NCBI RefSeq assembly: GCF_002117915.1
Contig: NZ_BDJB01000005.1
Coordinates: 186,001-250,000 of the forward strand
Source of the DNA: Sphingomonas sp. TZW2008
GTDB taxonomy: Bacteria > Pseudomonadota > Alphaproteobacteria > Sphingomonadales > Sphingomonadaceae
Direction: 5' to 3'
Length of the DNA stretch: 64,000 nucleotides
The translations under genes and the position numbers were made by a program. The notes under the pieces are model-generated. The model did not search any database. It worked only from the letters and a program-made list of their open reading frames with translations, and was not told the origin of the DNA. This document shows, piece by piece, positions 46,440 through 64,000 of the stretch; the first letter of the stretch is position 1; each line of letters opens with the position of its first letter.

Positions 46440-46529
46440 CGGCTAATCTCCCCCTGGCATCAGCCTAGCCGATCGCCGCGATGTTGTCGCTTTGCTTCGC
46501 GTCCGGAATGTGCGATGGCGCGGCCATAC

Positions 46530-46546
46530 CCGATCTTCAGAATCGG
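46530..46546. promoter_or_regulatory. Short inverted repeat before the acyl-CoA dehydrogenase pair
   Basis: CCGAT and ATCGG around a 7-nt spacer, 18 bp before the start at 46564, in the divergent region. It may be an operator or chance. Confidence 0.2.
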
Positions 46547-46563
46547 TTTCGGAGAAGCACCAG

Positions 46564-47784: not shown

Positions 47785-47833
47785 GTCATACGAGATCATC
47801 GGTTAGGCGCGGCGCAGACACGCGTCGGAGAGG

Positions 47834-47877
47834 GCCGGGTCGAGGAGGAGCGCGCAACGACGCTCCTCCTCCCCGGC
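47834..47877 (+). repeat. Long stem-loop between paired acyl-CoA dehydrogenase genes
   Basis: An 11-bp perfect stem (47842-47852 / 47861-47871, 8-nt loop) continues, past a 2-nt bulge, into 6 more pairs (47834-47839 / 47872-47877). No T tract follows. It ends 27 bp before the next start and could tune relative expression of the two subunits. Confidence 0.55.
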
Positions 47878-47904
47878 AAGTCCTTCGAAAAGGGGTTGGG
47901 TTAC

Positions 47905-48969
47905 ATGGCAGCGTTGAACGACGAACAGGTGATGCTCCGCGACATGGCGCGCGAGTGGGCCGATAAAGAATCGCCCACCACCGCGTTTCGCAAGCTTCGC
48001 GACGCGGCGCCGGCGAAGGGCTTCGATCCGGAAGCTTGGAGCACCATCGGCCAGATGGGCTGGGCCGGCGTCGTCATTCCGGAGGAGTTCGGGGGATCGG
48101 CGTTCGGCTATCTCTCGCTCGGCCTCGTCGTCGAGCAGCTCGGGCGCAATCTGGCGGTGAGCCCGCTGTCGTCCACCGCGGTCGCGGCGACGGCGATCGC
48201 GATGGGCGGCGTCGATGCGGCAAAGAGCGAGTGGCTGCCGAAGCTCGCCTCGGGCGAAGCGGTAGCGACGCTCGCGATCGACGAGGGTCCGATCCACGAC
48301 GGCAAGGTGACGACGAGCGCCTCGGGCAGCACGATCAGCGGCACCAAGAAATTCGTGGCGGAGGGTGATGGCGCCGACGTGTTCGTCGTCTCCGCGACCG
48401 ACGGGCTTTACCTCGTCGCGAAGGGTGACGGCGTCACTGTCTCCACCCGCAAGATGGCCGACAGCCGCAGTCATGCCGATGTTATCTTCAGTGATGCGCT
48501 GGGGCAGAAGCTGGGCGGGACCGACCTGACGCAGGCGATCGTCGATCGCGCGACCGCGGTGACGACCGCCGAGATGCTCGGCATGGCGGAGAGCGCGTTC
48601 GAGCAGACGCTCGATTATCTCAAGCAGCGCGTGCAGTTCGGCCAGGTGCTGTCCACCTTCCAGGCGCTGCAGCACCGCATGGCAAAGATGAAGACTGAGC
48701 TCGAGCTGATGCGGTCGGCGGTCGAGGGTGCGCTCGAGGCGATCGATGCCGGGCGCTCGGACGTCGATCAGGCGGTCAGCCTTGCCAAGGCGACTGCGAA
48801 CGATACGCTTCGCCTCGTCAGCCGCGAGATGGTGCAGCTCCACGGCGGCGTCGGCATGACCGACGAATATGACGCCGGCCTGTACCTGAAGCGTGCGGCA
48901 ACGCTTGAGACGATGTGGGGCACCGCGTCCTACCATCGCGATCGTTTCGCCAAGCTCAACGGTTACTGA
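47905..48969 (+). CDS. Acyl-CoA dehydrogenase, short (beta-type) partner
   Basis: 354 residues. The N-terminal domain is typical (GWAGVVIPEEFGGSAFGYLS), the middle beta domain is reduced (GTKKFVAEGDGADVFVVS), and the C-terminus reads LHGGVGMTDEYDAGLYLKRA, as in the shorter partners of heteromeric dehydrogenases. It probably pairs with the 46564 product. The ATG at 47905 has AGGGG 9 nt upstream. A strong terminator follows. The partial gene at the window end resembles this one. Confidence 0.92.
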   Translation: MAALNDEQVMLRDMAREWADKESPTTAFRKLRDAAPAKGFDPEAWSTIGQMGWAGVVIPEEFGGSAFGYLSLGLVVEQLGRNLAVSPLSSTAVAATAIAMGGVDAAKSEWLPKLASGEAVATLAIDEGPIHDGKVTTSASGSTISGTKKFVAEGDGADVFVVSATDGLYLVAKGDGVTVSTRKMADSRSHADVIFSDALGQKLGGTDLTQAIVDRATAVTTAEMLGMAESAFEQTLDYLKQRVQFGQVLSTFQALQHRMAKMKTELELMRSAVEGALEAIDAGRSDVDQAVSLAKATANDTLRLVSREMVQLHGGVGMTDEYDAGLYLKRAATLETMWGTASYHRDRFAKLNGY

Positions 48970-49088: not shown

Positions 49089-49140
49089 CGAGGAACCGGT
49101 ACGGCACGCATAGATGCTGATCGGCAACGGGAGAGTGATG

Positions 49141-52100
49141 ATGGCGAAGGCGACTTTCGCCCGAGCGAGCGCGTCTGCTGCGCTTGCCTGGGCTCTGGCG
49201 ATCGGCACGGCACACGCGCAGATCGGTGGTGATCCCCAACCGGCACAGGCTGCCACGGATCAATCCTCAAACGCCGACATCGTCGTCACCGGCACGCTGA
49301 TCCGCGGTACGCCGGAAAATCTCGCGGTGCCGGTCGACGTTATCTCGAGCGAGGAACTGTCGAAGCAGGGCGCCCCGACTGTGGTCGACCTCCTCAAGAA
49401 CCTGACCGTTGCCAATGGTACGGTGGGTGACGCGAACCAGTTCGACACTCGCGCGCAAGGTTCCGAAGGCGTTGCCTCGGTCAACCTGCGTGGCCTCGGC
49501 CCGCAGCGCACGCTGGTGCTGCTCAACGGTAAGCGCATGGTGCCGTCGGGTCTCGGCATCCCGATCGTCGACGTCAACATGTTCCCGGCGGGCGCGATCG
49601 GACGGGTCGAGATCCTTAAGGACGGCGCGGCGGCGACCTACGGCTCGGATGCGATCTCGGGCGTGGTCAACTTCATCACGCGCACCGATCAGGAGGGCTT
49701 CCTGGTCTCGGGCGACTATCGCTACATCGACGGCTCAAAGGGCGACTACGGCGGCGCGGCCTCGTTCGGGCACAAGCAGGACGGCTTTCGCGTATTCGGC
49801 GCGGTTGGGTATCAGCGTCGATCGGAGCTGCGCTTTACCGATCGCGACTTCGCCGTGCAGCCGTATCAGGCGAATCCGCAGGGCGCGTGGACTGGCGGCG
49901 GCAATCCCGGCAACTTCGACTTCAATGGCACGGTCGGCGGGATCAATCTGACCACCGATCTCGGCTGTACCGGTCTGGGCGGCTTCCGCAGCGCGCCGGG
50001 ATCGAACACCGACCGCTGCTTCACCAATTTCGGCCAGTTCGACAATCTGGTCGAACCCGAAGAGCGGTTTCAGGCTTATCTTGAGACCGAGTTCGACGTG
50101 ACCGACGACGCGTCACTGCGCTTCACCGGACTGTACTCGTTCACGAATACGCGGGTAACGAGCTCGCCGAGTTATTTGCCGACGTTGCCGCCGTCGACCA
50201 ATGCAGCATTCGGCAACGGCGCCTTGTTCATCATCCCCGGCTACTCGCCCGCACTGCGAGACTATTGCACGCTATATGGTGCGCAGGCGGGATGCACACG
50301 GAACGCCGCCGGTGCGCTCGACAGCGCTGCGGGCCTGCCCGTGCTTTTCCGCCCATTCCTGCTGGGCGGCAATCCGCTGTTCGACAACGGCAGCAACGAT
50401 CGCGGTTCGGCGGTATCGAAGCGTGATACGGAGGCGCTGCGCTTCACCGCGGAAGCCAACGTGCGGCTGACCGACAACCTCGACTTCTCGACGGGCTTCA
50501 CGTTCAGCGAATATCTTCGCGACTACGACGGCACCGATACGTTCGGTGATCTTTTGCAGAACGCGCTTGCCGGTTTCGGCGGGCCGACCTGCGCCTATGC
50601 GTCGACAGCGTCCCGCGCGGGGCTCAGCGCGGCGCAACTCGCGGCACTGGCGGGCACCAACGGGTGCACGTACTTCAACCCCTTCTCGACCGGCGTGCCG
50701 CGCAACGCTGTCACCGATGTCGCAAACCCAAATTATGCTGGGACGCGCAATCCGGCCGGGTTCAACCTGGCGCCGGGGGCAGGGCTCATCAACGATCTTT
50801 CGACGATCGATCTTTTCTTCCGCACGCCCAACACGCAGATCCGCACGCGTCAGTTCGTCGGGGATTTCGCGCTGTCCGGGCGTACGGGGCTGCGGCTGTG
50901 GGCGGACAAGGATATCGGCTTCGCGATAGGTGCCCAATATCGCAAAAACACCTTCAGCACGCAGTTGAATGCTGACGCTAACCTTGCGACCAATCCGTGT
51001 CCGGGCACACCGCTCAATCCCAATGCGACGTGCAATCCGCTAACGGGCGCGCTCGGCTTCTTGGGCACGAACTTCCAGCGTTTCGCCCAGGCTGACGTCT
51101 ATGCGCTGTTCGCCGAGTTGCAGGTCCCGATCATCGATGCGATCAATCTTCAGCTGTCGGCGCGTTACGAGGATTATCGCGGCAACGTGGGTTCGACCTT
51201 CGACCCACAAGCGCGCGTGAAGATCGAGCTCACCGATTGGCTCGGGCTGCGCGGCGGCGTGGGCAGCAGTTTCCGCGGCCCGCCGCCGCAGAACCTGTCG
51301 GGATCGGGCGTGTCGCTACAGGTGATCGGCACCGGCTTCCGCGCCGTCGAGGTATTCGGCAATCCCAATCTGGAGCCGGAGAGCGCGACGACCTACAATG
51401 GCGGCGTGCTGATCGACAGCGGCCCGTTCAACGCCAGCCTCGATTACTGGCGCTACGACTTCAAGGGGCCGATTGAATCGGAGCCGGTGTCGGGTCTTGC
51501 CACGGCGCTATTCGGCGCCAGCGGCACGGCCAATTGCGGCAATCCCGCGTTTGCTGCGCTGCAATCGCGTTTCACCTTCAACGCCGCCGGCTGCGGGATC
51601 AACAACGTCAGCCGCCTGCGCACGCAGGTCTTCAACAGCGCCAATGTGAAGACATCGGGCCTCGATTTCACCGCCAGTTACCGCGGCGAGCTGGGCCCAG
51701 CGCGTATCACTGTCGGCGGGGCCGCGACCTACGTCATCGATTATAAGATCGATGACCTGATCGTGGAGAACATCCTGGTGCAGCCGGCGTTCAACGCGGT
51801 CGGCCTGTTGAACTTCCAGACGACGGCGTATCCGATTCCGCAGTGGCGTGGCAATTGGTACGTCCAGGGCGATGCGGGTCCGCACTCGCTGCGCCTGCAG
51901 TTCAACTATGTCGACGGCTACACCGATCAGCGCGGCGCCGCGATCTACGGCCCGAACCTTGGCGCACTCGGCGGCGCGTCGGTGACGCGCGGCAAGGAGA
52001 TCGGTTCGTGGCGGACGTTCGACGCGACCTATCGTCTCGCGCTCGAAAGCGGCACGACGTTCACGCTTGCGGCGGTCAACATCTTCGATCGCGATCCGCC

Positions 52101-52188
52101 GTTCGCGCGGCTCGATCCGAACTATGACAGCTTCACCGCGTCGCCGCTCGGCTTCACGCTGAAAGCGGGCGTGTCGCAGGCGTTCTAA
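49141..52188 (+). CDS. TonB-dependent outer-membrane receptor
   Basis: 1015 residues. A signal peptide (about 1-26) is followed by a short segment with a TonB-box-like ADIVVTG, a plug domain (SVNLRGLGPQRTLVLLNGKR, then ILKDGAAATYGSDAISGVVN) and a long 22-strand-type beta-barrel ending in Phe (KAGVSQAF). Such receptors import large or hydrophobic nutrients; length and style match the sphingomonad carbohydrate/aromatic receptors rather than short siderophore receptors. The ATG at 49141 has GGGAG 7 nt before it. Neighbours suggest a ligand fed to acyl-CoA catabolism. Confidence 0.95.
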   Translation: MAKATFARASASAALAWALAIGTAHAQIGGDPQPAQAATDQSSNADIVVTGTLIRGTPENLAVPVDVISSEELSKQGAPTVVDLLKNLTVANGTVGDANQFDTRAQGSEGVASVNLRGLGPQRTLVLLNGKRMVPSGLGIPIVDVNMFPAGAIGRVEILKDGAAATYGSDAISGVVNFITRTDQEGFLVSGDYRYIDGSKGDYGGAASFGHKQDGFRVFGAVGYQRRSELRFTDRDFAVQPYQANPQGAWTGGGNPGNFDFNGTVGGINLTTDLGCTGLGGFRSAPGSNTDRCFTNFGQFDNLVEPEERFQAYLETEFDVTDDASLRFTGLYSFTNTRVTSSPSYLPTLPPSTNAAFGNGALFIIPGYSPALRDYCTLYGAQAGCTRNAAGALDSAAGLPVLFRPFLLGGNPLFDNGSNDRGSAVSKRDTEALRFTAEANVRLTDNLDFSTGFTFSEYLRDYDGTDTFGDLLQNALAGFGGPTCAYASTASRAGLSAAQLAALAGTNGCTYFNPFSTGVPRNAVTDVANPNYAGTRNPAGFNLAPGAGLINDLSTIDLFFRTPNTQIRTRQFVGDFALSGRTGLRLWADKDIGFAIGAQYRKNTFSTQLNADANLATNPCPGTPLNPNATCNPLTGALGFLGTNFQRFAQADVYALFAELQVPIIDAINLQLSARYEDYRGNVGSTFDPQARVKIELTDWLGLRGGVGSSFRGPPPQNLSGSGVSLQVIGTGFRAVEVFGNPNLEPESATTYNGGVLIDSGPFNASLDYWRYDFKGPIESEPVSGLATALFGASGTANCGNPAFAALQSRFTFNAAGCGINNVSRLRTQVFNSANVKTSGLDFTASYRGELGPARITVGGAATYVIDYKIDDLIVENILVQPAFNAVGLLNFQTTAYPIPQWRGNWYVQGDAGPHSLRLQFNYVDGYTDQRGAAIYGPNLGALGGASVTRGKEIGSWRTFDATYRLALESGTTFTLAAVNIFDRDPPFARLDPNYDSFTASPLGFTLKAGVSQAF

Positions 52189-52303: not shown

Positions 52304-53605
52304 ATGGATGCCAGCACCACGTTGTCGCCCGAGGGGCGCGACGCGCGGGCGCTCCGCCGTCGCGGCTGGACCCTGGCGCTCCTGACCACCGCCTATTTCT
52401 TCAGCTTCATGGACCGGCAGATCCTCTCGATCCTGCTCGAATCGATCAAGGCCGACCTCAAGCTCTCCGACACGCAGCTGGGGCTGCTGTCGGGTCTCGT
52501 CTTCGCGCTGTTTTACGCGACACTCGGCCTGCCGATCGCGCGGCTCGCCGATCGGTCGAGCCGCAGCAACATCATCGCGATCAGCCTCGCGTTCTGGAGC
52601 CTGATGACCGCAGTGTGCGGATTGGCGCAGAATTTCGTCCAGCTGATGTTCGCCCGCATCGGCGTTGGCATCGGCGAAGCGGGGTTCGGCCCCCCGAGCC
52701 AGTCGATCATCGCCGACCTCTATCCGCCCGAGAAGCGGGCGAGTGCGATGGCGATCTACTCGCTCGGCGTGCTGCTCGGGGGCGGTCTCGGCATCGTCAT
52801 CGGTGGGTTCGTCGCGCATTCCTATGGCTGGCGCGTTGCGATGATGGTCGTCGGGCTGCCGGGCGTGGCGCTCGCCATCATCATGAAGCTTTTCGTGGTC
52901 GAGCCGCGTCGTGGCTTGTCCGACGGGCCGGCGGCGGCGCCGATCGCCGATCAGCCGGCGGTGAGCCTGTGGCAGGGGATCGGCGAGATGTGGCGCAACC
53001 GCGCGGCGTTCCACCTGGTCGCGGCGATCACCGTCACCTCGCTGATCGGCTATGCCGTGACTGGCTGGGGCCCGAGCTACATGCAGCGCTCGCTCGGCAT
53101 GTCGATGCTCGACGTGTCCAAATACGTCGCATTGCCCGCCGCCTTTGTCGCCGGCGGCTCGGCGCTGCTCGGCGGGTGGCTGTGTGACCGCGCGGCGAAG
53201 CGCCATGGCATCTTCGCGCAGAGTTACGTCGTCGCGATCATGAAGGTCGTCGCGTTCCCCTTCGCGCTCGCCTTCTACTTCGTCGATGACCTGTGGCTCG
53301 CGCTCGGCTCATACTTCATCGCCGCAATCTTCGCCGGCGCGTACATCGGGCCGACCTATGCGATGATCCAGCACCTCGCACCGCTGCGGCTGCGGTCGAC
53401 CTGGGCGGCGCTGACGCTGCTCGCGACGAGCCTGCTCGGACTGGGGCTGGGGCCTTTCATCGTGGGGCAGGTCAGCGATATCCTGCGACCGACCTATGGT
53501 GCGGAGTCGCTGCGCTGGGCGATGTTCTCGGTCGCGATGCTGACGCCGCTCGGCATCTTCCACTATTGGCGTGCGGGCGTGCTGATGCGTCGCGCGAACG
53601 TCTGA
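52304..53605 (+). CDS. MFS transporter, spinster-like
   Basis: 433 residues, 12 predicted helices. FSFMDRQILSILLESIKADL in helix 1, then LPIARLADRSSRSNIIAISL (motif A region) and GEAGFGPPSQSIIADLYPP are features of the spinster-type MFS proteins common beside sphingomonad catabolic genes. It likely imports an organic acid or lipid-like substrate that the TonB receptor brings into the periplasm. TAGGAG precedes the ATG. A hairpin follows the stop. Confidence 0.92.
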   Translation: MDASTTLSPEGRDARALRRRGWTLALLTTAYFFSFMDRQILSILLESIKADLKLSDTQLGLLSGLVFALFYATLGLPIARLADRSSRSNIIAISLAFWSLMTAVCGLAQNFVQLMFARIGVGIGEAGFGPPSQSIIADLYPPEKRASAMAIYSLGVLLGGGLGIVIGGFVAHSYGWRVAMMVVGLPGVALAIIMKLFVVEPRRGLSDGPAAAPIADQPAVSLWQGIGEMWRNRAAFHLVAAITVTSLIGYAVTGWGPSYMQRSLGMSMLDVSKYVALPAAFVAGGSALLGGWLCDRAAKRHGIFAQSYVVAIMKVVAFPFALAFYFVDDLWLALGSYFIAAIFAGAYIGPTYAMIQHLAPLRLRSTWAALTLLATSLLGLGLGPFIVGQVSDILRPTYGAESLRWAMFSVAMLTPLGIFHYWRAGVLMRRANV

Positions 53606-53674: not shown

Positions 53675-54919
53675 CTAGCCGTCGATCACGCGATCGTCGA
53701 ACATGCCGAACGCCAATGTCGAGGCGTAGAGCGCGATCGCCCGATCGGTCGGCATGGACCAGGCCCATTTCCGCATGTCAAAGGCGGCGTTGAGGAACGC
53801 CATGACGAGCTGGCTCGCGACCAGCGGGTCGACCGCGCGCACCGTGCCCTCGGCAACCCCGTCGGAGATCGTACCGGCGAAACGGCGTGCGATACGGTTG
53901 GAGCGATCGACCATCGTCGCGCGCTCCGCGGTCGGCAGCCCGCTGAGCGCCGTCGTGCGCAGCAGCGGGCCCAGTTCGGAGAATTGCACGCCGAGCAGCG
54001 TCGCGAACATCGCGGACAGCCGTTCCCATTGGGTGCCGCCTTGCTCGTCTGCGAGACGCTGCGCCGCGGAGATCGTATCGAAGCTGCGCCGATAGCAGGC
54101 GATGACGAGATCATCCTTCGCGTCGAGGTGATGGTAAAAGCTGCCCTTGGTGACGTTGAGCGCGCTGGCGATCCGTTGCACCGATGCGCCGCGATAGCCT
54201 AGCTCGTTGATCAGCCGCGTAGCGGCGAGCAGGAAGGCATCGCGCCCCTCGGCGGGATCACGTGGCAGTTCGACAGGGCGGGGCGCCCAGCGCGCATTAG
54301 GTGTCGCAAGGCCGTGGCGGAACACTTCCATCACGCGCGCCTCGACACGGCCAAGTTGGTCAGGTTCGTAGCGCGGCAGCCAGACGGGCAGCCAGAAGGT
54401 GTTTTCCATCAGCACGTGCGCACGCGCACCGTTGAGATCGGTCTGCGCGCGGCCGTGCACTGGTCCCCATAGCCCGCGGGCGCGCCGGAATACCTCGCGC
54501 CAGCCGGCCATCAGCCGCCCGCGGACAGGTTCGTCCATGGCGCGCAGGTCGGACAGGCCGGCGATCTGTCGTTCCTCGCCGCGACGCACGCGTGCGAGCC
54601 GCGCCATATTGAGCGCCAGATACCGCTCGACGCGTGCCTCAGGCGTCGGCGCCTCCATCGCGGTGTCGAGCATGACGAGAAGGTAATCGAGCGTATGCTC
54701 GAATGCCGCTGCCGCCAGATCTTCCTTGCGCTTGAAATAATAGGTGACGCTGGTGGTATTCAGCCCGACGCGACGTGCGACGTCGGCGAACGTCATGCCC
54801 TTCGCACTTTGTTCGTTGATCGCGTCTGCAGCGGCGGCAAGAATGGCTTCGCGCTTCGCCCGGAAGCGGCGCGTGCCGATCTCCTCTCCGTCGCCGCCCG
54901 GTTCCCCCTGAGCCTGCAT
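53675..54919 (-). CDS. Double-TetR transcriptional regulator
   Basis: 414 residues, about twice the size of a TetR protein. Two DNA-binding domains are visible: the first at about 18-68 (MTFADVARRVGLNTTSVTYY), the second at about 227-276 (ASVQRIASALNVTKGSFYHH), each followed by its own helical ligand domain. A single chain could thus act like a TetR dimer. It is divergent from the ACAD10/11-like dehydrogenase at 55073 and probably controls the catabolic genes. The ATG at 54919 was chosen over 24 further upstream in-frame residues of poor quality. Confidence 0.88.
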   Translation of the reverse strand: MQAQGEPGGDGEEIGTRRFRAKREAILAAAADAINEQSAKGMTFADVARRVGLNTTSVTYYFKRKEDLAAAAFEHTLDYLLVMLDTAMEAPTPEARVERYLALNMARLARVRRGEERQIAGLSDLRAMDEPVRGRLMAGWREVFRRARGLWGPVHGRAQTDLNGARAHVLMENTFWLPVWLPRYEPDQLGRVEARVMEVFRHGLATPNARWAPRPVELPRDPAEGRDAFLLAATRLINELGYRGASVQRIASALNVTKGSFYHHLDAKDDLVIACYRRSFDTISAAQRLADEQGGTQWERLSAMFATLLGVQFSELGPLLRTTALSGLPTAERATMVDRSNRIARRFAGTISDGVAEGTVRAVDPLVASQLVMAFLNAAFDMRKWAWSMPTDRAIALYASTLAFGMFDDRVIDG

Positions 54920-55013: not shown

Positions 55014-55041
55014 GCTTTACCGAAGATGCGGTACGCTTTAC
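55014..55041. repeat. Direct repeat in the TetR / acyl-CoA dehydrogenase intergenic region
   Basis: GCTTTAC occurs at 55014-55020 and 55035-55041, 21 bp apart (two helical turns). A nearby quasi-palindrome GGCAA-AGCGC-TTGCC lies at 54975-54989. Either could be the regulator site. Confidence 0.3.
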
Positions 55042-55072: not shown

Positions 55073-56389
55073 ATGGATTTCACCCTGACCGAACGCGAGA
55101 CCTATTTCCGGGATCGCGTCCGAGCCTTTATCGAGGCGGAAATCGCGCCGCGTCAGGCCGAATATCACGAGCAGGCGCATCATGGCGATCGCTGGAAGGT
55201 GATCCCGGTGATCGAGGAAGTGAAGGAAAAGGCCAAGGCCGCCGGGCTGTGGAATTTCTTCATGCCGCCGCATTCGGGACAGCAGCATGTCGACGACACG
55301 TTCGAGTTCGAAGGCACGCAGCTCACCAACCTTGAGTACGCACTGTGCGCCGAGGAGATGGGCAAGATCGGCTGGGCCAGCGAGTGCTTCAACTGTTCGG
55401 CGCCCGATACGGGCAACATGGAAGTGCTGCACCGCTACGGTACGCTCGAGCAGAAGGAGAAGTGGCTCCGCCCGCTGATGAACGGCGAGATCCGCTCGGT
55501 CTTCTTCATGACCGAGCCGGCGGTCGCCTCGTCCGATGCGACCAACATCGAGACGCGGATCGAGCGTGACGGCGATGAGTACGTCATCAACGGCCGCAAG
55601 TGGTGGTCGTCTGGCGTCGGCGATCCGCGCTGCAAGATCGGCATCCTGATGGGCAAGACGAGCTTCGAGGGCTCGCGCCACCAGCAGCAGAGCCAGATCC
55701 TGGTGCCGATGGACACGCCCGGCATCAAGATCGAGCGCATGCTGTCGGTCTACGGCTACGATCACGCGCCGCACGGGCACGGCGAAGTGAGCTTCACCAA
55801 CGTCCGCGTGCCGGTGGAGAACGTGCTGCTGGGCGAGGGACGCGGCTTCGAGATCGCGCAGGGGCGGCTCGGGCCGGGCCGCATCCACCATTGCATGCGC
55901 ACGATCGGCGTCGCCGAGGTCGGCCTCGAGAAGATGGCCAAGCGGCTGCTGAGCCGCGTCGCCTTCGGCAAGCGCATCTCGGACCATTCGGTGTGGGAGC
56001 AGCGGATCGCGCAGGGCCGCATCGAGATCGAGATGACGCGCCTGCTGTGCCTCAAGGCGGCGCAGACGATGGATCACGCCGGCAACAAGGCGGCGCTGCA
56101 GGAAATCGCGATGATCAAGGTCTTCGCGCCGAACATGGCGCTGCGCATCCTCGACGACGCGGTGCAGGCGCACGGCGGCGGCGGCGTTGCGGAGGATTTC
56201 GGTCTTGCGCACGCCTGGGCATCGCAGCGCACGCTGCGCCTCGCCGATGGGCCCGACGAGGTTCACGCGCGAACGATCGCGCGCAACGAGTTCGGCAAAT
56301 ACGGTGACTGGAAGGCCGAGATCGCCAACGATCGCGGCGCGCCGCGCACCGCGGAGGTGTCGAGCGGCGATATCGGCGTCTCGCGCTGA
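55073..56389 (+). CDS. Acyl-CoA dehydrogenase of the ACAD10/ACAD11 type
   Basis: 438 residues. Besides the usual fold it carries stretches characteristic of the dehydrogenase domain of eukaryotic ACAD10/11: [49 protein letters not shown] and [20 protein letters not shown]. The C-terminal arginine-binding and HGGGGV motifs are intact. In ACAD11 this domain is fused to a phosphotransferase; here the counterpart is encoded separately at 57595. Its start has a GGAGGG site upstream. The promoter region is shared with the double-TetR gene. Confidence 0.93.
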
Positions 56390-56509
56390 GCCGGAGGAAG
56401 TAAGCGCCGTCGTTCCGAACCGTTCAGCGACCTGCTCTTCCCGCTCATCGAGGCGACGGAGAGCAGATCGGCGGCAGGTTCTCTAGGACGGCTTCGAAGG
56501 GGAATGAGG

Positions 56510-57598
56510 GTGAAGGCCGCAGTAATTTTCGAAACCAAGGCGCCGCTTCAGATCGAAGACGTCGTCGTCTCCAAGCCCGGCCCGCACGAGGTGCTGATCC
56601 GCACCGTCGCGTGCGGCGTGTGCCGATCCGACCTCCACTTCGTCGACGGCGCCTATCCGCATCCGCTGCCGGCCATTCCGGGCCACGAGGCAGCCGGGAT
56701 CGTCGAGGCGGTGGGCGACGAAGTGCGCACGGTGAAGGTGGGCGATGCGGTCGTCACGTGCCTGAGCGCGTTCTGCGGCCACTGCGAATTCTGCATCACC
56801 GGCCGCATGTTCCTGTGCGTCAGCGCGGAGACGAGGCGCGGGCAGACCAGCGAACCGCGCCTTCGCCTCGCGAATGGCGGCAACGTCAACCAGATGCTCA
56901 ATCTGTCCGCCTACGCCGAGCAGATGCTGGTGCACGAGCATGCGTGCGTCGCGATCGATCCGGAAATGCCGCTCGATCGCGCCGCACTGATCGGCTGTGC
57001 GGTGACGACGGGGGCGGGAGCGGTGTTCAACACCACCGACGTGACGCCGGGCGAGACGGTGTGCATCGTCGGCTGCGGCGGTATCGGCCTTGCAGCAGTC
57101 AACGCGGCGAAGATCGCCGGCGCTGGCAAGATCATCGCGCTCGATCCCGTGCCCGAGAAGCGCGCCGTCGCCGAGAAGCTGGGCGCAACGCACACCTTCG
57201 ATCCGATGGCGAACAACGTCGTCCAAGAGGTGGTGGAGCTGACCAAGGGCGGCGTCCATCATGCGATCGAGGCCGTCGGGCGTCCGCAATCGGCGCAGAC
57301 GACCGTCGACGTGCTTCGCCGCGGCGGCACCGCGACGATACTGGGCATGATGCCGCTCGATCAGAAGGTCGGCCTTTCCGCGATGGAGTTGCTGTCAGGC
57401 AAGAAGCTCCAGGGGGGGATCATGGGATCCAATCGTTTCCCGGTCGATATCCCGCGGCTGGTCGACTTCTACATGCGCGGGCTGCTCGATCTCGACACGA
57501 TCATCGCCGAGCGCCTGCCGCTTTCGCGGATCAACGACGCATTCGACGAACTGCGCAAGGGCGACGCGACGCGCAGCGTGATCGTGTTCGATCAATGA
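56510..57598 (+). CDS. Zinc-dependent alcohol dehydrogenase (class III-like MDR)
   Basis: 362 residues. Catalytic zinc ligands are in ACGVCRSDLHF and PGHEAAGIVEAVG; a four-Cys structural zinc lobe (AFCGHCEFCITGRMFLC) and the Rossmann motif GCGGIGLAAVNAA are present. It oxidises or reduces an alcohol/aldehyde with NAD(H). A GTG start with a well-placed AAGGGGA site is preferred; an ATG six bases upstream lies too close to that site. Its stop overlaps the phosphotransferase ATG (ATGA). Confidence 0.9.
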   Translation: MKAAVIFETKAPLQIEDVVVSKPGPHEVLIRTVACGVCRSDLHFVDGAYPHPLPAIPGHEAAGIVEAVGDEVRTVKVGDAVVTCLSAFCGHCEFCITGRMFLCVSAETRRGQTSEPRLRLANGGNVNQMLNLSAYAEQMLVHEHACVAIDPEMPLDRAALIGCAVTTGAGAVFNTTDVTPGETVCIVGCGGIGLAAVNAAKIAGAGKIIALDPVPEKRAVAEKLGATHTFDPMANNVVQEVVELTKGGVHHAIEAVGRPQSAQTTVDVLRRGGTATILGMMPLDQKVGLSAMELLSGKKLQGGIMGSNRFPVDIPRLVDFYMRGLLDLDTIIAERLPLSRINDAFDELRKGDATRSVIVFDQ

Positions 57599-58665
57599 CG
57601 ACGGCGACGGCGCAGGACACCAGCCTGCAGACGGAGGTTAGCGAGCGCGATCGGCTGGATACCGATCGCCTGTCGGCATGGATGGCGGATCACGTCCCCG
57701 ACTTCGCCGGCCCGCTGAGCTACGCGAAATTCGCGGGCGGGCAGTCCAACCCGACGTACAAGCTGATGACGCCGGATCGCAATTACGTGCTCCGGCGCAA
57801 GCCGATGGGCGAATTGCTGCCATCGGCGCACCAGGTCGATCGCGAATATCGCGTCATGGCCGCGCTTCACCCGACGGGCTTCCCGGTGCCGCGGCAGTAC
57901 GGCCTGTGCGAGGACGATAGCGTCATCGGTTCGGCCTTCTACGTGATGGAGATGGTCGACGGCAGGACGATCTGGGACGGATCGTTCCCGGGCATGGATG
58001 CCGACACCCGGCGCGCGCACTATCACGCGATGATCGATACGCTGGCAGCGCTGCACAACGTCGATCTGAAAGAGACGGGCCTCGAGGATTTCGGGCGACC
58101 GGGCAATTACTTCGAACGGCAGGTGAGCCGCTGGACGAAACAATATCGCGGCGCCGAGACCGAGCATATGCCGGCGATGGAGCGGCTGATCGAGTGGCTG
58201 CCGCGGACGATCCCCGAGCAGACGCGCAGCACGATCGTCCACGGCGACTATCGCTGCGACAACATGAAGTTCGCGCCAGGGCTCGAGCCGCGGGTTGCCG
58301 CGGTGCTCGACTGGGAATTGTGCACCACGGGCGATCCGCTGGCGGACCTCAGCTATTTCTTGATCAGTTGGGTCACGCAGCCCGAGGGACGATCGGGCGT
58401 GATGGGGCTAACCGGACCTGAAACGGGCATCCCGACGGTCGACGAAGTCGTCGCGCGCTACTGCGAGAAGACCGGACGCGATGGCGTTCCCGATCTAAAC
58501 TGGCTGCTGGCGTTCAACCTGTTCCGGCTGGCGTCGATCGTTCAGGGGATCCGCAAACGCTTCCTGATCGGTACGGCCTCCAGCGCGAGCGCCGAGGCAA
58601 CCAGCGCGCGGGTGCCGATGCTCGCCGACGCCGCGTGGGACTCCGCGGTCAAGGCAGGCGCCTGA
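57595..58665 (+). CDS. APH-fold phosphotransferase of the ACAD10/11 kinase-domain type
   Basis: 356 residues. Kinase-like motifs: FAGGQSNPTYKL (nucleotide loop), the Brenner motif VHGDYRCDNMKF with catalytic Asp, and VLDWELCTTGDPLADLSYFL for metal binding. Sequence is close to the N-terminal domain of ACAD10/11, which phosphorylates the hydroxyl of 4-hydroxyacyl-CoA; LvaA of the Pseudomonas levulinate pathway belongs to the same group. It is not a drug-resistance enzyme by context. Translation is coupled to the alcohol dehydrogenase by ATGA. Confidence 0.9.
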   Translation: MTTATAQDTSLQTEVSERDRLDTDRLSAWMADHVPDFAGPLSYAKFAGGQSNPTYKLMTPDRNYVLRRKPMGELLPSAHQVDREYRVMAALHPTGFPVPRQYGLCEDDSVIGSAFYVMEMVDGRTIWDGSFPGMDADTRRAHYHAMIDTLAALHNVDLKETGLEDFGRPGNYFERQVSRWTKQYRGAETEHMPAMERLIEWLPRTIPEQTRSTIVHGDYRCDNMKFAPGLEPRVAAVLDWELCTTGDPLADLSYFLISWVTQPEGRSGVMGLTGPETGIPTVDEVVARYCEKTGRDGVPDLNWLLAFNLFRLASIVQGIRKRFLIGTASSASAEATSARVPMLADAAWDSAVKAGA

Positions 58666-58750
58666 GCGGCAGGCGGGGGAAGGCGCAGCCTCGCACGGCG
58701 CGCCCGTTCCCGCGTCGCCATCCGTTACAATCAGCTAGGGAACAGGGTTG

Positions 58751-59515
58751 ATGAGCCTATTCGATCTGACAGGCAAAGTCGTCGTCATCACCGGATCGTC
58801 GCGCGGGATCGGCAAGGCCAGCGCGATCGCCTGCGCCGAGCAGGGCGCGAAGGTGGTGATATCGAGCCGCAAGCAGGATGCGTCGCAGGCGGTGGCGGAC
58901 GAGATCAACGCGCGCTTCGGCAATGGCACCGCGATCGCGGTCGCCGCGAACATCTCGGACAAGGCGGCGCTCCAGAACCTCGTCGACGAGAGCCGGCGCG
59001 CGTTCGGGCGGATCGACTGCCTCGTCTGCAACGCCGCGTCCAATCCCTATTACGGGCCGCAGGAAGGGATCGCGGACGAGCAGTTCCGCAAGATCCTCGA
59101 CAACAACATCCTGTCGAACCACTGGCTGATCACGATGGTCGCGCCCGAGATGAAGGAGCGCGGGGAGGGATCGATCGTGATCGTCTCCTCTATCGGCGGC
59201 CTCCGCGGATCGACGGTGATCGGCGCCTATTGCATCAGCAAGGCGGCCGACATGCAGCTCGCCCGCAACCTCGCGCACGAATATGGCAAGCACGGCATCA
59301 GGGTGAACTGCATCGCGCCGGGCCTGATCAAGACCGATTTCGCCAAGGCCCTTTGGGAGGACGAGGCGGCGGTGGCCGAGCGCAACCGCACCACGCCACT
59401 GCGGCGCATCGGCGAGCCCGACGAGATCGCGGGCGCGGTCGTCTATCTCGCGTCCAAGGCGAGCGGGTTCATGACCGGGCAGACGCTCGTGATCGACGGC
59501 GGCGTGACGATCTAG
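58751..59515 (+). CDS. SDR-family oxidoreductase
   Basis: 254 residues. TGSSRGIGKASA binds the dinucleotide, the NAAS motif is seen, and the active site is completed by YCISKAA. Such DHRS4-like reductases act on ketones, hydroxyacyl-CoAs or retinoid-like alcohols. It lies 85 bp after the phosphotransferase gene, with a TACAAT -10-like box at 58726-58731. The ATG at 58751 was taken rather than the TTG three bases upstream. Confidence 0.92.
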   Translation: MSLFDLTGKVVVITGSSRGIGKASAIACAEQGAKVVISSRKQDASQAVADEINARFGNGTAIAVAANISDKAALQNLVDESRRAFGRIDCLVCNAASNPYYGPQEGIADEQFRKILDNNILSNHWLITMVAPEMKERGEGSIVIVSSIGGLRGSTVIGAYCISKAADMQLARNLAHEYGKHGIRVNCIAPGLIKTDFAKALWEDEAAVAERNRTTPLRRIGEPDEIAGAVVYLASKASGFMTGQTLVIDGGVTI

Positions 59516-59569
59516 CATCGGGCCGGCGCGGCGGGCGCGGGACAGAGGATCGGCGAAATGGAGGGTGGA

Positions 59570-60367
59570 ATGGCAAGGTTCGAAGGCAAGTCGATCATCG
59601 TCACCGGCGCAGGGTCGGGCATCGGTCGTGCCGCCGCGACGCTGTTCGCCGCCGAGGGCGGACAGGTGATCGTCGCCGACAAGACCGGCGCCGAGGCGAC
59701 GGCGGACGCGATCCGGGCGAGCGGTGGCGCAGCCCATGCGATCGAGATGGACGCCGGCAGAGAGGAGGATGTCGTACGCACCGTCGCGGCGGCGTGCGAG
59801 AAGTTCGGCGGGCTCGACGTGATGTTCGCCAACGCCGGGATTTCGGGCGGCATGGCCAACATCTTCGACACCGATGTCGCGCTGATCACCGAGGTGCTTC
59901 GCGTCAACGTGATCGGGCCGTTCCTGGCGATCAAGCATGCCGCGCCGCGGATCGCGGAGCGCGGCAAGGGCGCGATCATCCTCACCGCTAGCGTTGCCGG
60001 CATTCGGTCCGGCGCGGGATCACCGGCCTATTCGGCGTCCAAGGCAGGCGTGATCAATCTGGCGCAGGTTTCGGCGCAGCAATTGTCGGGATCGAACGTG
60101 CGGGTGAACGCGATCTGCCCGGGGCTGACCGAAACCGGCATGACCAAGTCGGTGTTCGACTATGCGCGCGATGCGGGGAAGATGGATCGCGTCGGTCGAC
60201 TCAACCCGCTGCGTCGCGGCGCGCAGCCCGAGGAACTGGCGCGCGTCGCGCTGTTCCTCGCGTCGGACGAGGCGAGCTACGTCAACGGGCAGGCGATCGC
60301 GGTCGACGGTGGTCTGTCATCGAGCCATCCGGTGACGCGGCAGGAGTACGGTCGCACCACCGCCTGA
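59570..60367 (+). CDS. SDR-family oxidoreductase
   Basis: 265 residues. [21 protein letters not shown] and YSASKAG show a complete classical SDR. It could act as a 3-hydroxyacyl-CoA or secondary-alcohol dehydrogenase after the previous steps. GGAGGG lies just upstream of the ATG at 59570, in preference to an ATG 12 nt before. It is 55 bp after the preceding SDR gene, and probably the last of the operon from 55073. Confidence 0.92.
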
Positions 60368-60429: not shown

Positions 60430-62262
60430 TCAGCGCGCCTGTGACGCGACCCAGCGGTCCACGATCTTGCCGAGCACGCCGAGCGGCATGCCGCCCGCTT
60501 GCACCACAACGTCGTTGAAGCCGCGCACGTCGAAGCGGGCGCCGAGCCGCGCTTTGGCATCGTCGCGCAACCGATTGATCTCGTTGTGCCCCATCTTGTA
60601 GCCGAGCGCCTGGCCGGGCCACACGCAGTAGCGGTTCACCTCGGACCGCGCGCGGCTCTCGGTGAAGCCGGTCGCGGCCATCAGCCAGCGCGTCGCTTGG
60701 TCCGCGGTCCAGCGCTTGTGGTGCAGCCCGGTATCGACGACGAGACGTGCGGCGCGGAAGTTCATCGACTGGAGATAGCCAATCCGGCCGAGCGGATCGT
60801 CGGCGTAATAGCCGAGCTCGTCGCCGATCTGCTCGGCATAGAGGCCCCAGCCTTCCGAGTAAGCGTTGAAGCCGAGCAGCGTGCGGATCAGCGGCAGATC
60901 GAAGGTATATTCGCCCTGCCAGATATGCCCGGGGATGCCCTCGTGGAAGGTCAGCGAGGGGAGGCCCAAGCGCGGCCAGTTCGCCATGTCACGCAGGTTG
61001 ATATAATAGATACCGGGCGTCGATCCATCGAGCGCGCCAGGGCCGGCATAGCCATTCGGCGCGCCGTTCTGGATCGCCGGCGGAACGCGCTTGATGACGA
61101 GATTGCCGCGCACCAGCTTGCCGAACGCCTGCGGCAGCCGTGGGCGAAGTCGCGCCACGATCTGTTCCAGATAGGCAAGCAGGGCGGCGCGCCCGTCGTC
61201 GCTGTCGGGGAATAGCAGATCGGGGCGCTGGCCCAGTGCGGCGAGCCGCTCGCCGGCGGTGCCCTTCGACAGGCCCTGCGCGCGGAGCAGCGGGTCGAGC
61301 TCGGCGGCATAGGCGCGGCACTGGTCAAGCCCCGACTGATGGATTTCCTCGGGCGTCCGCTTCGTAGTGGTGCTCGCCTCGACCAGCCATGCGTAGCGGG
61401 ATGCGGCATCGGGCTGACGCCACATGCCGACATCGGCAGGTGCGCGGGCGCGCAGGGCCGCGATCGCGTCGGCCTGTGCCGCCAAGGCAGGCGCGATGCG
61501 GCGCTCGACGATCGTCGTGGCGCGTGCCTGCCAGTCGGAGCCGAGCCCGGCAGCGGCGGTCTTCTCGCCGAAGCTGCGGATCATGCCCTGCTCGCGTACC
61601 GGCTGCGCGGCGCCCGCGCGCAGCTGCGCGACGGTGATGTCGTTGAACGCCGCGGGAAGCAAAACGCCGCGCGCCGCATCGGCACGCACGCGCTCGGTCT
61701 CGTCGGCGAGCTGGACGGCATAGGCCTCGAGCCGCGCGATATAGGCCTCCGCATCGGCGCGGCCGGCGACCTGGTGCTTGTTCTCGAGCAGATCGGGCGT
61801 GTCGACGAACGCGCCGTTGCCCTGTGTCACGATATAGGGTGTCGAGCGGAAGTTGTTGTTCGACAGCAGCGCCATGTCGCCCACCGGCATCCGGCGCCAA
61901 CCCTCTACCCCGATCTCGTGCGCGGCCATGACTGTCTCGACGTGAACCGCGACCGCGGGGCTGAGGCCGCGCAGGTCGAGCCGCCTGAGCTCTGCGAGCC
62001 GCTTCACCGCGCGGTCGCGTCGCGCGGCGTCGGCGCGCGCGCTGCGATCGGTAAGCTTCGCCTTGAGCGCGGCGCGCTTTCCGCTGTCGAGGCCGAGGTA
62101 GGCGGCGCTCTCGGGATAGTCCGCCAGCAGCGCCTCGGCGTGACGATCGAGTGCCGCCAGCGCCTTCGTATCGGCAGTTGGAGCGGCGGCCTGCGCGCCA
62201 AACGGCGTCGTCGCGGCGAGCGCTGCCGCGCCGCCGAGGAAGCCGCGTCGATCGAGGCTCAT
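60430..62262 (-). CDS. DUF885 family protein with Tat-type signal
   Basis: 610 residues. The N-terminus MSLDRRGFLGGAAALAATTP is a twin-arginine-like signal, so it is exported folded. The DUF885 core has FHEGIPGHIWQ, with a His-Glu zinc-site-like motif, and NAYSEGWGLYAEQ further on, the pattern of proposed metallopeptidases of this family. Activity is unproven. The ATG overlaps the stop of the thioesterase gene (ATGA). It may join the peptide-degrading set seen at 24617 and 32462. Confidence 0.85.
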   Translation of the reverse strand: MSLDRRGFLGGAAALAATTPFGAQAAAPTADTKALAALDRHAEALLADYPESAAYLGLDSGKRAALKAKLTDRSARADAARRDRAVKRLAELRRLDLRGLSPAVAVHVETVMAAHEIGVEGWRRMPVGDMALLSNNNFRSTPYIVTQGNGAFVDTPDLLENKHQVAGRADAEAYIARLEAYAVQLADETERVRADAARGVLLPAAFNDITVAQLRAGAAQPVREQGMIRSFGEKTAAAGLGSDWQARATTIVERRIAPALAAQADAIAALRARAPADVGMWRQPDAASRYAWLVEASTTTKRTPEEIHQSGLDQCRAYAAELDPLLRAQGLSKGTAGERLAALGQRPDLLFPDSDDGRAALLAYLEQIVARLRPRLPQAFGKLVRGNLVIKRVPPAIQNGAPNGYAGPGALDGSTPGIYYINLRDMANWPRLGLPSLTFHEGIPGHIWQGEYTFDLPLIRTLLGFNAYSEGWGLYAEQIGDELGYYADDPLGRIGYLQSMNFRAARLVVDTGLHHKRWTADQATRWLMAATGFTESRARSEVNRYCVWPGQALGYKMGHNEINRLRDDAKARLGARFDVRGFNDVVVQAGGMPLGVLGKIVDRWVASQAR

Positions 62263-63161
62263 GCGCTCGCCTCGGGCTTGGGTGCGCGCTGGCGGATCAG
62301 CCCTTCCTGCGCGACCGTCGCGACAAGGCGCCCATCGCGGGTGAAGATCTGCCCGCGGTTCATGCCGCGCGCGTGGCCGGCCCAGGGACTGTCGGTGGCG
62401 TAGAGCAGCCATTCGTCGGCACGGAACGCCTCGTGCAGCCAGATCGAGTGGTCGAGGCTCGCGCTCTGGAAGCCGGGGGTCGTCCAATTGACGCCGTGCG
62501 GCAGCATGCACGTGCCGAGTAGCGCCATATCCGAGGCATAGGAGAGGATCGCACGGTGCATCGCGGGATCATCGCCGATCGGCGCGACGACGCGGAACCA
62601 GCTGTGCTGGATCGGCTCGGTCGGCGTCGGATTGAACCATTTGCGCGGATAGACCGGACGTATCTCGATCGGACGTGGGCGGGTGACCATGCGGCGCTGC
62701 TTCTCGGGCAGATGCACGGCGTCGCGCGCGCGCAGTTCCGCCTCGGTCGGTAGGCTCTCGGGCGCTGGCACGTCGGGCATCGCATCCTGGTGATGAAAGC
62801 CCTCCTCCGGCGTTTGCAGCGAGCAGGCGAGATTGAGGATTGGTGCGCCGCGCTGCATCGCGATCACGCGCCGGGTGGCGAAGCTTCGGCCTTCGAAATC
62901 GCGCACGACACGGTAGATGATCGGGAAGTTCTCGTCGCCCGGCCGCATGAAATAGGCGTGCAGCGAGTGCGCAACCTTTGGCTCGTCGGTCGAGCGCTGT
63001 GCCGCCTGCAGCGCCTGCGCGATCACCTGGCCGCCGAAGACCCGCCCGACGCCGCCGCGCGATCGGCGGCCGCGATACAGATCGGTGTCGATCTCTTCGA
63101 CGTCGAGCAGGTCGACGAGATCGGCGGCGAGCGCCTCGACGGTGGGCGGCGTGTCGTTCAA
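62259..63161 (-). CDS. tesB: Acyl-CoA thioesterase II (TesB-like)
   Basis: 300 residues. Double-hotdog motifs: RVFGGQVIAQALQAA, VAHSLHAYFMRPGD, and the C-terminal ASLDHSIWLHEAFRADEWLLY with the catalytic Asp, followed by RGMNRGQIFTRDGRLVATVAQ, the TesB ending. It releases free acids from acyl-CoA. The TTG at 63161 has GGGGAG 8 nt upstream; no ATG fits. That ribosome site forms one arm of a hairpin (63170-63186). Confidence 0.92.
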   Translation of the reverse strand: MNDTPPTVEALAADLVDLLDVEEIDTDLYRGRRSRGGVGRVFGGQVIAQALQAAQRSTDEPKVAHSLHAYFMRPGDENFPIIYRVVRDFEGRSFATRRVIAMQRGAPILNLACSLQTPEEGFHHQDAMPDVPAPESLPTEAELRARDAVHLPEKQRRMVTRPRPIEIRPVYPRKWFNPTPTEPIQHSWFRVVAPIGDDPAMHRAILSYASDMALLGTCMLPHGVNWTTPGFQSASLDHSIWLHEAFRADEWLLYATDSPWAGHARGMNRGQIFTRDGRLVATVAQEGLIRQRAPKPEASA

Positions 63162-63309
63162 GTCTTCTTCTCCCCGATACGGGGAGGGGTACCACGCGAG
63201 GCAGGGTGGTGGGGAGCCGCCACGAGCGCTTCGCCTGGGGACAGCCCCTCCACCGTTCCCTGCGACTGCGATCCTTCCGCCCGGATGCGGGAAGGAGGAT
63301 CGATCACGA
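63162..63309. repeat. REP-like intergenic mosaic between thioesterase and acyl-CoA dehydrogenase genes
   Basis: 148 bp built from short inverted repeats: CTCCCC/GGGGAG (63170-63175 / 63181-63186), GGTGG and CCACC runs around CGCTTCGC, and CCTTCC/GGAAGG (63273-63278 / 63290-63295). The composition and pieces resemble the mosaic intergenic repeats common in sphingomonads. No coding potential is visible. One hairpin covers the ribosome site of tesB. Confidence 0.5.
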
Positions 63310-64000
63310 TCAGTAGCCGGCAGCCTGTGCGAGGCGATCGGCGTGGTAATTGGCATCGCCGAACAGCTCGGCGAGCACGCGCTGGCGCTTCATGTAGAAG
63401 CCGATGTCGTACTCGTCGGTCATGCCGATGCCGCCGTGCATCTGAATGCCTTCCTGAACGCTGAGCATCGTCGCGAGCCCGGTCATCGCTTTGGCGACCG
63501 AGACAGCGGCATCGGCCTTGTCGTCACCAGCGTCGAGCAGCTGCTGTGCCTTAAGGACCGCGGCGCGCGCCACTTCCATCTCGCTGTAGAGGTGGGCGGC
63601 GCGGTGCTGCAGCGCCTGGAAGCTGCCGATCAGCGTGCCGAACTGCTTGCGCTCCTTGATGTAGCCGATCGTCATGTCCATCGCGCCAGCACCGACACCC
63701 AGCATCTCCGCCGCGGCACCCGCGCGGCCGGCGCGCAGCAGGCGATCGAGCGGATTGCGCCCGGCGTCGACCTCGCCGATCACCGCGTCGGCATCGACCT
63801 CGACGCCGTCGAACTCGATGCGGGCGGCGAGGCTCGCATCCGCCAGTCGCTCGGCGCGCGCCGTCATTCCGGCGGCGTCCTTGGGCACCGCGAAGAGCGT
63901 GACGCCGTCCTGATCGTCCGCCGCGCCGGCGGTGCGCGCGGAGACGATGACGAAGTCCGCAACATGGCCGTGGTGGACGAACTGTTTCGCGCCGGTGAGC
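63310..64000 (-). CDS. Acyl-CoA dehydrogenase, beta-type (5' end outside window)
   Basis: The C-terminal 229 codons are visible; the frame runs off the window end. Features: a GRAGAAAEMLGVGAGAMDMT helix start, ERKQFGTLIGSFQALQHR, and a C-terminal MHGGIGMTDEYDIGFYMKRQ ending in AAGY. These resemble the short dehydrogenase at 47905 (shared HGGxGMTDEYD and QALQHR). It probably also works as part of a heteromeric enzyme with a partner beyond the window. Confidence 0.9.
   Translation of the reverse strand, partial: LTGAKQFVHHGHVADFVIVSARTAGAADDQDGVTLFAVPKDAAGMTARAERLADASLAARIEFDGVEVDADAVIGEVDAGRNPLDRLLRAGRAGAAAEMLGVGAGAMDMTIGYIKERKQFGTLIGSFQALQHRAAHLYSEMEVARAAVLKAQQLLDAGDDKADAAVSVAKAMTGLATMLSVQEGIQMHGGIGMTDEYDIGFYMKRQRVLAELFGDANYHADRLAQAAGY

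Follow-up and report, generated by a model that had tools for sequence, protein, structure and literature searches.

A Two-Protein Version of ACAD10/11, Probably Acting on 4-Hydroxyacyl-CoA, in a Conserved Gene Cluster of Sphingomonas

We analyzed a window of 64,000 nucleotides from the 3.5-Mb genome of Sphingomonas sp. TZW2008 (23 contigs), the window being the whole stretch of contig NZ_BDJB01000005.1 from position 186,001 to position 250,000. One run of genes in the window encodes an acyl-coenzyme A (CoA) dehydrogenase (ACAD) and an aminoglycoside phosphotransferase (APH)-fold kinase that are related to the two halves of the mammalian protein ACAD11. Taken as a whole, the data are best explained if the work of ACAD10/11 is here shared between two proteins, which convert 4-hydroxyacyl-CoA to 2-enoyl-CoA by way of a phosphate, a reading that we regard as likely. 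In ACAD10 and ACAD11 the kinase domain phosphorylates 4-hydroxyacyl-CoA, and the ACAD domain, using a redox-active FAD but with no net oxidation, eliminates the phosphate to yield 2-enoyl-CoA (PMC12440821, PMC11342911). Because relatives of both ACAD11 halves are encoded here by two genes, 4-hydroxy fatty acids are probably burnt by the same phosphate trick. Sequence kinship, active-site residues, gene order conserved among relatives and a conserved upstream site are the observations behind this reading.

Results

The original prediction, made from the letters of the window, held that the dehydrogenase starting at 55073 and the phosphotransferase starting at 57595 match the two domains of ACAD10/11. 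Both reading frames are intact, and searches of the Protein Data Bank (PDB) bear this claim out, with 55% and 40% identity to the respective domains of ACAD11 and scores far beyond chance. The two protein stretches that it had quoted are also present, the mouse versions being similar rather than identical (VHGDYRCDN compared to VHGDFKLDN in mouse). Specifically, the window ACAD scored 443 bits against mouse ACAD11, 439 bits against human ACAD11 and 434 bits against the chain 4hr3, and then 145 bits against an ordinary ACAD; over all PDB sequences the E-values were 1e-131 for ACAD11 and 4e-41 for the best ordinary ACAD. Aligned over 399 residues, it is 55% identical to both mouse and human ACAD11, and it is 52% identical to 4hr3, which we take to be a Mycobacterium abscessus protein and which the database listing names only putatively. 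No NCBIfam cut-off was reached by the window ACAD. Judged by sequence, the window ACAD is nearest to ACAD11 and set well apart from ordinary ACADs.

The active-site residues point the same way. In the cryo-electron microscopy study of ACAD11, residues R626, H634 and R637 handle the 4-phosphate beside the catalytic aspartate D753 (PMC12440821). We located the corresponding residues by motif in an 88-row ACAD alignment, from which matches with an internal stop were dropped (three such rows are named, that of locus L152 among them). The window ACAD carries Arg, Arg, H-C-M-R and Asp, a set identical to that of mouse and human ACAD11 (RRHCMRD), including the Arg eight residues before the His and the catalytic Asp that replaces Glu. 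All 40 rows of relatives with at least 50% identity, representing 38 distinct genes, share the Arg-HCMR-Asp set. By contrast, the His occurs in none of the 40 rows of ordinary ACADs (28 with a letter at that column and 12 gapped), and the control 4n5f is also without it. The ACADs of loci L148 to L155 stand outside both counts; among them HCMR is found at L148, L149, L150 and L152 and in the distant L151 (31% identity). It is also present in an ACAD from Croceicoccus (L124, 72% identity). Two further ACADs of the TZW2008 genome are possible distant members of the ACAD10/11 kind, as suggested by their sequences: one on contig C3 at 457535-458692 (L012, 33% identity) has HCMR and the full set of the window ACAD, and one at 395912-397081 of the same contig (L011, 35% identity) has HGMH at the phosphate site.

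The kinase shows a parallel pattern. Its best PDB matches were 3dxp (379 bits, E-value 2e-112), ACAD11 (260 bits, 3e-76) and 9o56 (203 bits, 8e-59), followed by a drop to 44 bits (1e-10). It is 40% identical to the kinase domain of mouse ACAD11 and 52% identical to 3dxp, presumably a Cupriavidus protein, which the database listing names only putatively; 9o56 carries the database name aminoglycoside phosphotransferase. A quick maximum-likelihood tree placed the window kinase together with mouse ACAD11 and 3dxp in a branch that takes in 37 of the 54 rows (SH-aLRT support 97), and not with unrelated APH families, the outcome that the original prediction had named as counting against it. The same branch holds the kinases that adjoin ACAD11-like ACADs, apart from that of Deinococcus (L148), which joins 9o56. 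Outside it lie two other APHs of this genome (L004 and L006) and the kinases linked to DUF6285 genes; the APH loci L003, L005 and L008 of this genome, as well as L144, gave no kinase match and are absent from the tree.

The window kinase retains the catalytic HGD, the Asn of the DN motif, the metal-binding Asp of DWE, an Arg at the helix-C Glu and an Arg in the substrate region. The two arginines fit the descriptions of residues proposed to contact CoA. The second is missing in all six other kinases compared (five DUF6285-linked kinases and L006) and the first in five of the six; L007 keeps the first, and L004, which lies outside the branch, has both.

Five plus-strand genes within 55073-60367 encode, in order, the ACAD, a zinc-dependent alcohol dehydrogenase (ADH), the kinase and two short-chain dehydrogenases (SDR1 and SDR2), with intergenic gaps of 114, −4, 85 and 42 bases (Table 1). 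The positions agree with the original prediction, which had placed an alcohol dehydrogenase between the pair and two SDRs after it. The 4-base overlap of the ADH stop with the kinase start, together with the short gaps, fits one operon. The nearest PDB chains of the ADH are class I and class III ADHs.

Table 1. Positions and strands of the operon, its putative control elements and neighboring genes in the window
Feature	Position	Strand	Properties
ACAD	55073-56389	+	438 residues; ACAD10/11-LvaC type; Pfam ACAD domains
Zinc-dependent medium-chain ADH	56504-57598	+	364 residues; Pfam ADH_N, ADH_zinc_N
APH-fold kinase, proposed 4-hydroxyacyl-CoA kinase	57595-58665	+	356 residues; ACAD10/11 type; Pfam APH 2.4e-53
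SDR1, short-chain dehydrogenase	58751-59515	+	Pfam adh_short_C2 1.8e-62
SDR2, short-chain dehydrogenase	59558-60367	+	Pfam adh_short_C2 3.7e-57
Divergent regulator, two TetR domains in one chain	53675-54919	-	Two Pfam TetR_N stretches
Imperfect palindrome TTTACCGAAGATGCGGTA, proposed operator	55016-55033		From alignment of upstream regions; upstream of ACAD
Large-subunit-like ACAD	Open frame 46492-47784, true start probably 46564	+	Pfam ACAD domains; pimC_large 290 bits
Small-subunit-like ACAD	Open frame 47896-48969, true start probably 47905	+	Pfam ACAD domains; IpdE2 155 bits
Acyl-CoA thioesterase II (TesB-like), convergent neighbor	62259-63356	-	Pfam Acyl_CoA_thio 4.8e-37; start codon uncertain
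Partial downstream ACAD	63310-64000	-	Locus L127; rest of array beyond window end
AMP-binding acyl-CoA ligase	42812-44344	-	Pfam AMP-binding 9.3e-71

This gene arrangement is conserved. In a family sample of 249 genomes, 200 contain a match to the kinase (E ≤ 1e-60) and 189 a match to the ACAD (E ≤ 1e-100). Spacing was counted among the matches listed, weaker ones being left out, which comprised 134 genomes with a kinase and 138 with an ACAD, 130 of them common to both. Among these, the ACAD is followed by a same-strand kinase after 1.09 to 1.46 kb in 105 of the 130 genomes and stands directly before the kinase (gap of at most 186 bases) in eight. The ADH (59 to 100% identity) was found at 28 of 30 kinase loci read with 1.5-kb flanks (L024-L053, the window's own included); at the other two the ACAD adjoins the kinase. 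At 25 named loci (L054-L078) the ACAD and SDR2 (at least 57% identity) are present in every case, the ADH in 23, the tandem-TetR gene in 24 and SDR1 (at least 60% identity) in 17. Neighboring genes were identified by BLAST and by a simple open-frame picker, which sometimes took antisense frames, for example opposite the kinase. The nearest named relatives are Sphingomonas, Sphingomonas sp. Ag1 among them, in which the identity of the kinase reaches 94%. In the annotated records read, bacterial counterparts of the pair bear generic names, "acyl-CoA dehydrogenase" for one and "aminoglycoside phosphotransferase" or "phosphotransferase family protein" for the other.

Pairs of ACAD and kinase genes with no adjoining ADH were also found, both outside the family group, in Ruegeria, Burkholderia arboris, Paraburkholderia and Deinococcus, and inside it, on plasmids of Sphingopyxis, Sphingobium and Novosphingobium. 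These pairs have differing neighbors, among them SDRs, FadJ-like proteins and CoA ligases; the ACAD and kinase of Deinococcus are separated by about 1 kb that contains no listed gene or ADH match. Within a set of eight plasmid loci, no ACAD match was obtained at L154 and L155, and only the 31% one at L151. In Croceicoccus an ADH adjoins the ACAD on the opposite strand, and no kinase match lies within the 17 kb read. The TZW2008 genome itself holds a second ACAD of the ACAD11 kind (C3:391088, 50 to 52% identity) and a second kinase (C8:92318, 49% identity) on separate contigs, neither with its partner in the 18 to 19 kb read. Among these copies, only those in the window form a linked pair.

Literature searches returned no published description of the ACAD-ADH-kinase arrangement in Sphingomonadaceae, their only matches being PMC12440821 and a Comamonas genome paper, and the main text of a paper on tomatine (PMC10653915) contains none of four gene terms looked for. 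The chemistry is not new, as it has been published for ACAD10/11 and for a split pair from Burkholderia pseudomallei. What these searches did not turn up is the placement of a zinc ADH between the ACAD and the kinase in a bacterial family, in many cases accompanied by SDRs and, in Sphingomonas, by a divergent tandem-TetR gene.

The product of that gene is 414 residues long when read from its ATG, the open frame running on to 54991, and its two halves align to each other (E-value 4e-06). Between it and the ACAD gene lies the imperfect palindrome TTTACCGAAGATGCGGTA, which, with some letters changed, was present in 24 when the 25 named loci were aligned; the only locus without it (L077) is also without the tandem-TetR gene. 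At 55016-55033 the site is the sole match in the window with at most two mismatches, where 0.07 were expected. A search of nine genomes found the exact 16-base core in five, with one copy in each; the TZW2008 copy is the one at the cluster, and those of the other four precede the start of the kinase by about 2.5 kb, much as in the window. Copies of the TACCGAA site with one mismatch elsewhere in the nine genomes were no commoner than a reversed-pattern control, and therefore only the exact site was used. The tandem-TetR protein thus described probably binds this palindrome and thereby controls the operon. Such a TetR "dimer" in one chain could recognize an operator that lacks symmetry. Another candidate, the inverted repeat GGCAA-N5-TTGCC upstream of the ACAD, was rejected, as it is present in the window and in none of 37 relatives scanned. 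No sigma-70 promoters were identified by consensus.

Upstream of the operon the plus strand carries a second ACAD pair, a TonB-dependent receptor (49114-52188) and an MFS transporter (52304-53605); a receptor stands at that place in five of the 25 named loci. Two minus-strand frames opposite the ACAD pair were rejected as genes. Farther upstream, an MFS pump (45231-46439, minus strand) scored 304 bits against the Tet(A)/(B)/(C) tetracycline efflux model, whose cut-off is 475. Downstream of the operon, on the minus strand, are genes for a DUF885 protein and the TesB-like thioesterase (TIGR00189, 275 bits, cut-off 292.85). Past the window end this strand continues with two ACADs, an amidase, a FadB/FadJ-like protein and a serine hydrolase. 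A CoA ligase is encoded on the plus strand about 7 kb beyond the window end, and its best NCBIfam model is steroid-24-oyl-CoA synthetase (459 bits, cut-off 750). The best models of the two downstream ACADs are the small (233 bits) and large (296 bits) subunits of pimeloyl-CoA dehydrogenase, and those of the upstream pair are pimC_large and IpdE2, in each case below the cut-off. In a Sphingomonas relative, the PDB chains nearest to the large downstream ACAD are 6wy9, 6wy8 and 4x28, heterotetrameric ACADs that we take to be steroid side-chain enzymes. Across 42 loci, small-kind ACADs recur at 22, FadJ-like proteins at 24 and large-kind ACADs at 24, the last count mixing upstream and downstream copies. 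These beta-oxidation genes could take up the enoyl-CoA product of the pair, and the two flanking ACAD pairs hint at a ring-bearing or dicarboxylic substrate.

The original prediction had also named the CoA ligase at 42812 as a possible source of the thioester. This ligase lies 11 to 13 kb from the operon, on the opposite strand. A match to it (E ≤ 1e-100) was found in 17 of 20 cluster-bearing genomes, with none in G091, G260 and G261. In the eight ligase-bearing genomes for which distances were obtained, it is on the same contig about 11 to 16 kb from the cluster in TZW2008 (G000), G155, G205, G245, G258 and G259, about 139 kb away in G249 and about 96 kb away in G251. A fixed link between a CoA ligase and the cluster does not hold in every genome and was dropped; given this incomplete linkage, the ligase is a candidate supplier rather than an established one.

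Discussion

The activities, substrate and regulation that we ascribe to the window operon are read from its sequence. The starting 4-hydroxyacyl-CoA would come from a CoA ligase or from previous rounds of beta-oxidation. The kinase would move the gamma phosphate of ATP onto the 4-hydroxyl, and the ACAD, its bound FAD not being consumed overall, would remove the phosphate to leave a 2-enoyl-CoA, which a hydratase, a dehydrogenase and a thiolase would then burn. The most likely task of the ADH and the SDRs is to convert 4-oxo and 4-hydroxy forms into each other or to oxidize a second hydroxyl of the same substrate. LvaD, an SDR, reduces levulinyl-CoA to 4-hydroxyvaleryl-CoA (PMC6692424), and by analogy the ADH or the SDRs may reduce a 4-oxoacyl-CoA. 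Because the kinase of ACAD10 has about a fourfold preference for R-4-hydroxyacyl-CoA (PMC11342911), the ADH and SDRs could also be imagined as a handedness switch, the ADH oxidizing the S form to the 4-oxo compound and an SDR reducing this to the R form, so that both enantiomers and 4-oxo acids enter one route. We consider this rather unlikely; if true, it would represent a lineage-wide extension of the ACAD10/11 route in Sphingomonadaceae, with a tandem-TetR regulator and its own operator.

The split ACAD10/11-type pair of the original prediction is upheld by the structural relatives, the active-site residues and the kinase tree, while gamma-hydroxylated acids, lactones or similar compounds are substrates that we, too, infer rather than observe. 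Several results weigh against our assignment. HCMR is not universal, the motif being HAMR in 4hr3 and in the ACAD of Paraburkholderia (L153, 56% identity). The kinase tree was a quick one in which 17 of 50 inner branches stay open and a long-branch warning applies to the rows outside the branch, and the published residue R86, which we equate with the Arg next to the helix-C Glu, could be located from its description but not by number. In 15 of the 130 genomes the kinase and ACAD genes lie on separate contigs or opposite strands, in two they are far apart, and an ACAD11-like gene was found near none of 31 distant kinase loci (L079-L109, mostly Acidimicrobiia, with flanks of varying length), which indicates that such kinases may also serve elsewhere. 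Finally, the literature searched reports no activity for these proteins.

Two alternatives concern the substrate. The kinase and ACAD may act on a bulky ring-bearing or branched acyl-CoA with a gamma hydroxyl, such as a steroid or terpenoid side chain or an opened ring. The NCBIfam models of the flanking ACAD pairs, the PDB relatives of the downstream ACAD and the steroid-24-oyl-CoA synthetase model of the ligase all lean this way, albeit with NCBIfam scores below the cut-offs, and P450 genes occur near two other ACAD-kinase pairs; a related pair on one Sphingobium plasmid lies beside genes for a P450, an epoxide hydrolase and a 3-alpha-hydroxysteroid dehydrogenase. That the upstream frames at 46492-48969 are real ACADs adds to its weight. 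However, the kinase is present in more of the family genomes than would be expected for a specialized steroid pathway, similar ACADs also serve dicarboxylates, and mammalian ACAD10/11 act on straight chains (PMC12440821, PMC11342911), so that we view a ring-bearing substrate as possible but somewhat improbable. We are equally tentative about a housekeeping role, in which the pair cleans up mid-chain hydroxy fatty acids (cutin monomers, ricinoleate-type acids or lipid peroxidation products) and the ADH oxidizes an end hydroxyl. Wide conservation in the family sample and the FadB/FadJ-like and thioesterase neighbors would suit such a role, but the copies carried on plasmids of other genera point to the breakdown of special substrates, and a search of the TZW2008 genome for oleate hydratase, considered as a source of 10-hydroxy acids, gave no match.

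A levulinate-type pathway like that of Pseudomonas putida, in which an SDR would play the part of LvaD and the 42812 ligase that of LvaE, would share the logic of kinase, ACAD and SDR (PMC6692424). This is decidedly unlikely, as the operon gaps are too small for an LvaB-like gene, the regulator is of TetR type and not of the sigma-54 type named for LvaR (PMC6692424), and the CoA ligase is not always linked. A DUF6285 protein was considered as a possible LvaB. The genome has one such gene (C5:464051, within C5:462734-466755; L007, L126), which adjoins another APH-fold kinase and two ordinary ACADs. At 20 further DUF6285 loci (L128-L147, some being double views of one gene) no ACAD of the HxMR type was found in the 1.5-kb flanks, and the kinases at 19 of the 20 are only 25 to 29% identical to the window kinase; the idea was dropped for these two reasons. 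The DUF6285-APH pairing may be a different acyl-CoA kinase system. Least probable by far is that the kinase is an aminoglycoside phosphotransferase lying next to an ACAD by accident. The APH fold, the name of the relative 9o56 and a weak NCBIfam APH(3') match could be taken to suggest it, but that match reaches 31.5 bits against a cut-off of 205, the ACAD11 kinase outscores 9o56 (260 bits compared to 203 bits) and the gene order is held across a family. We therefore reject a function in antibiotic resistance.

We thus return to a split ACAD10/11 system, which is best placed by comparison with those already described. The chemistry of ACAD10/11 was assigned in mammals only in 2024-2025. The window has the same two domains as mammalian ACAD11 and ACAD10, with the Arg-HCMR-Asp set in one and the catalytic residues and two arginines in the other. 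In the window, however, these reside on two separate proteins instead of one polypeptide, the ACAD gene precedes that of the kinase, there is no HAD domain, and zinc ADH and SDR genes belong to the same gene run. The split LvaA/LvaC orthologs of B. pseudomallei (kinase Q63VL0) are likewise a separate kinase and ACAD, which stood in for each ACAD10 domain in vitro (PMC11342911); the passages of that paper do not mention an ADH, and the likeness to the window is one of description, not of sequence. The P. putida lva operon (LvaABCDE) also combines a kinase, an ACAD and an SDR in a pathway through a 4-phosphoacyl-CoA (PMC6692424). Its kinase LvaA is 29% identical to the ACAD10/11 kinases and works with LvaB (PMC11342911), whereas in the window there is no LvaB-sized gene (gaps of at most 114 bases, with the 364-residue ADH in its stead), the regulator is of TetR type and a zinc ADH is added; kinship to lva is here taken from published figures (PMC6692424, PMC11342911, PMC12440821). 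The structural relatives 3dxp and 4hr3 are each 52% identical to their window counterparts, the kinase and the ACAD respectively, and differ from them in the HAMR of 4hr3 versus HCMR in the window. The sequence comparisons give good support for placing the window pair in a class of enzyme pairs that is already known, within a gene arrangement that is conserved. Its assignment would correct a misleading kinase name that suggests antibiotic resistance. With a gene set that is family-wide and includes a fixed ADH partner and what is likely its own regulator, the natural substrate can be tested directly by genetics in a bacterium that grows easily.

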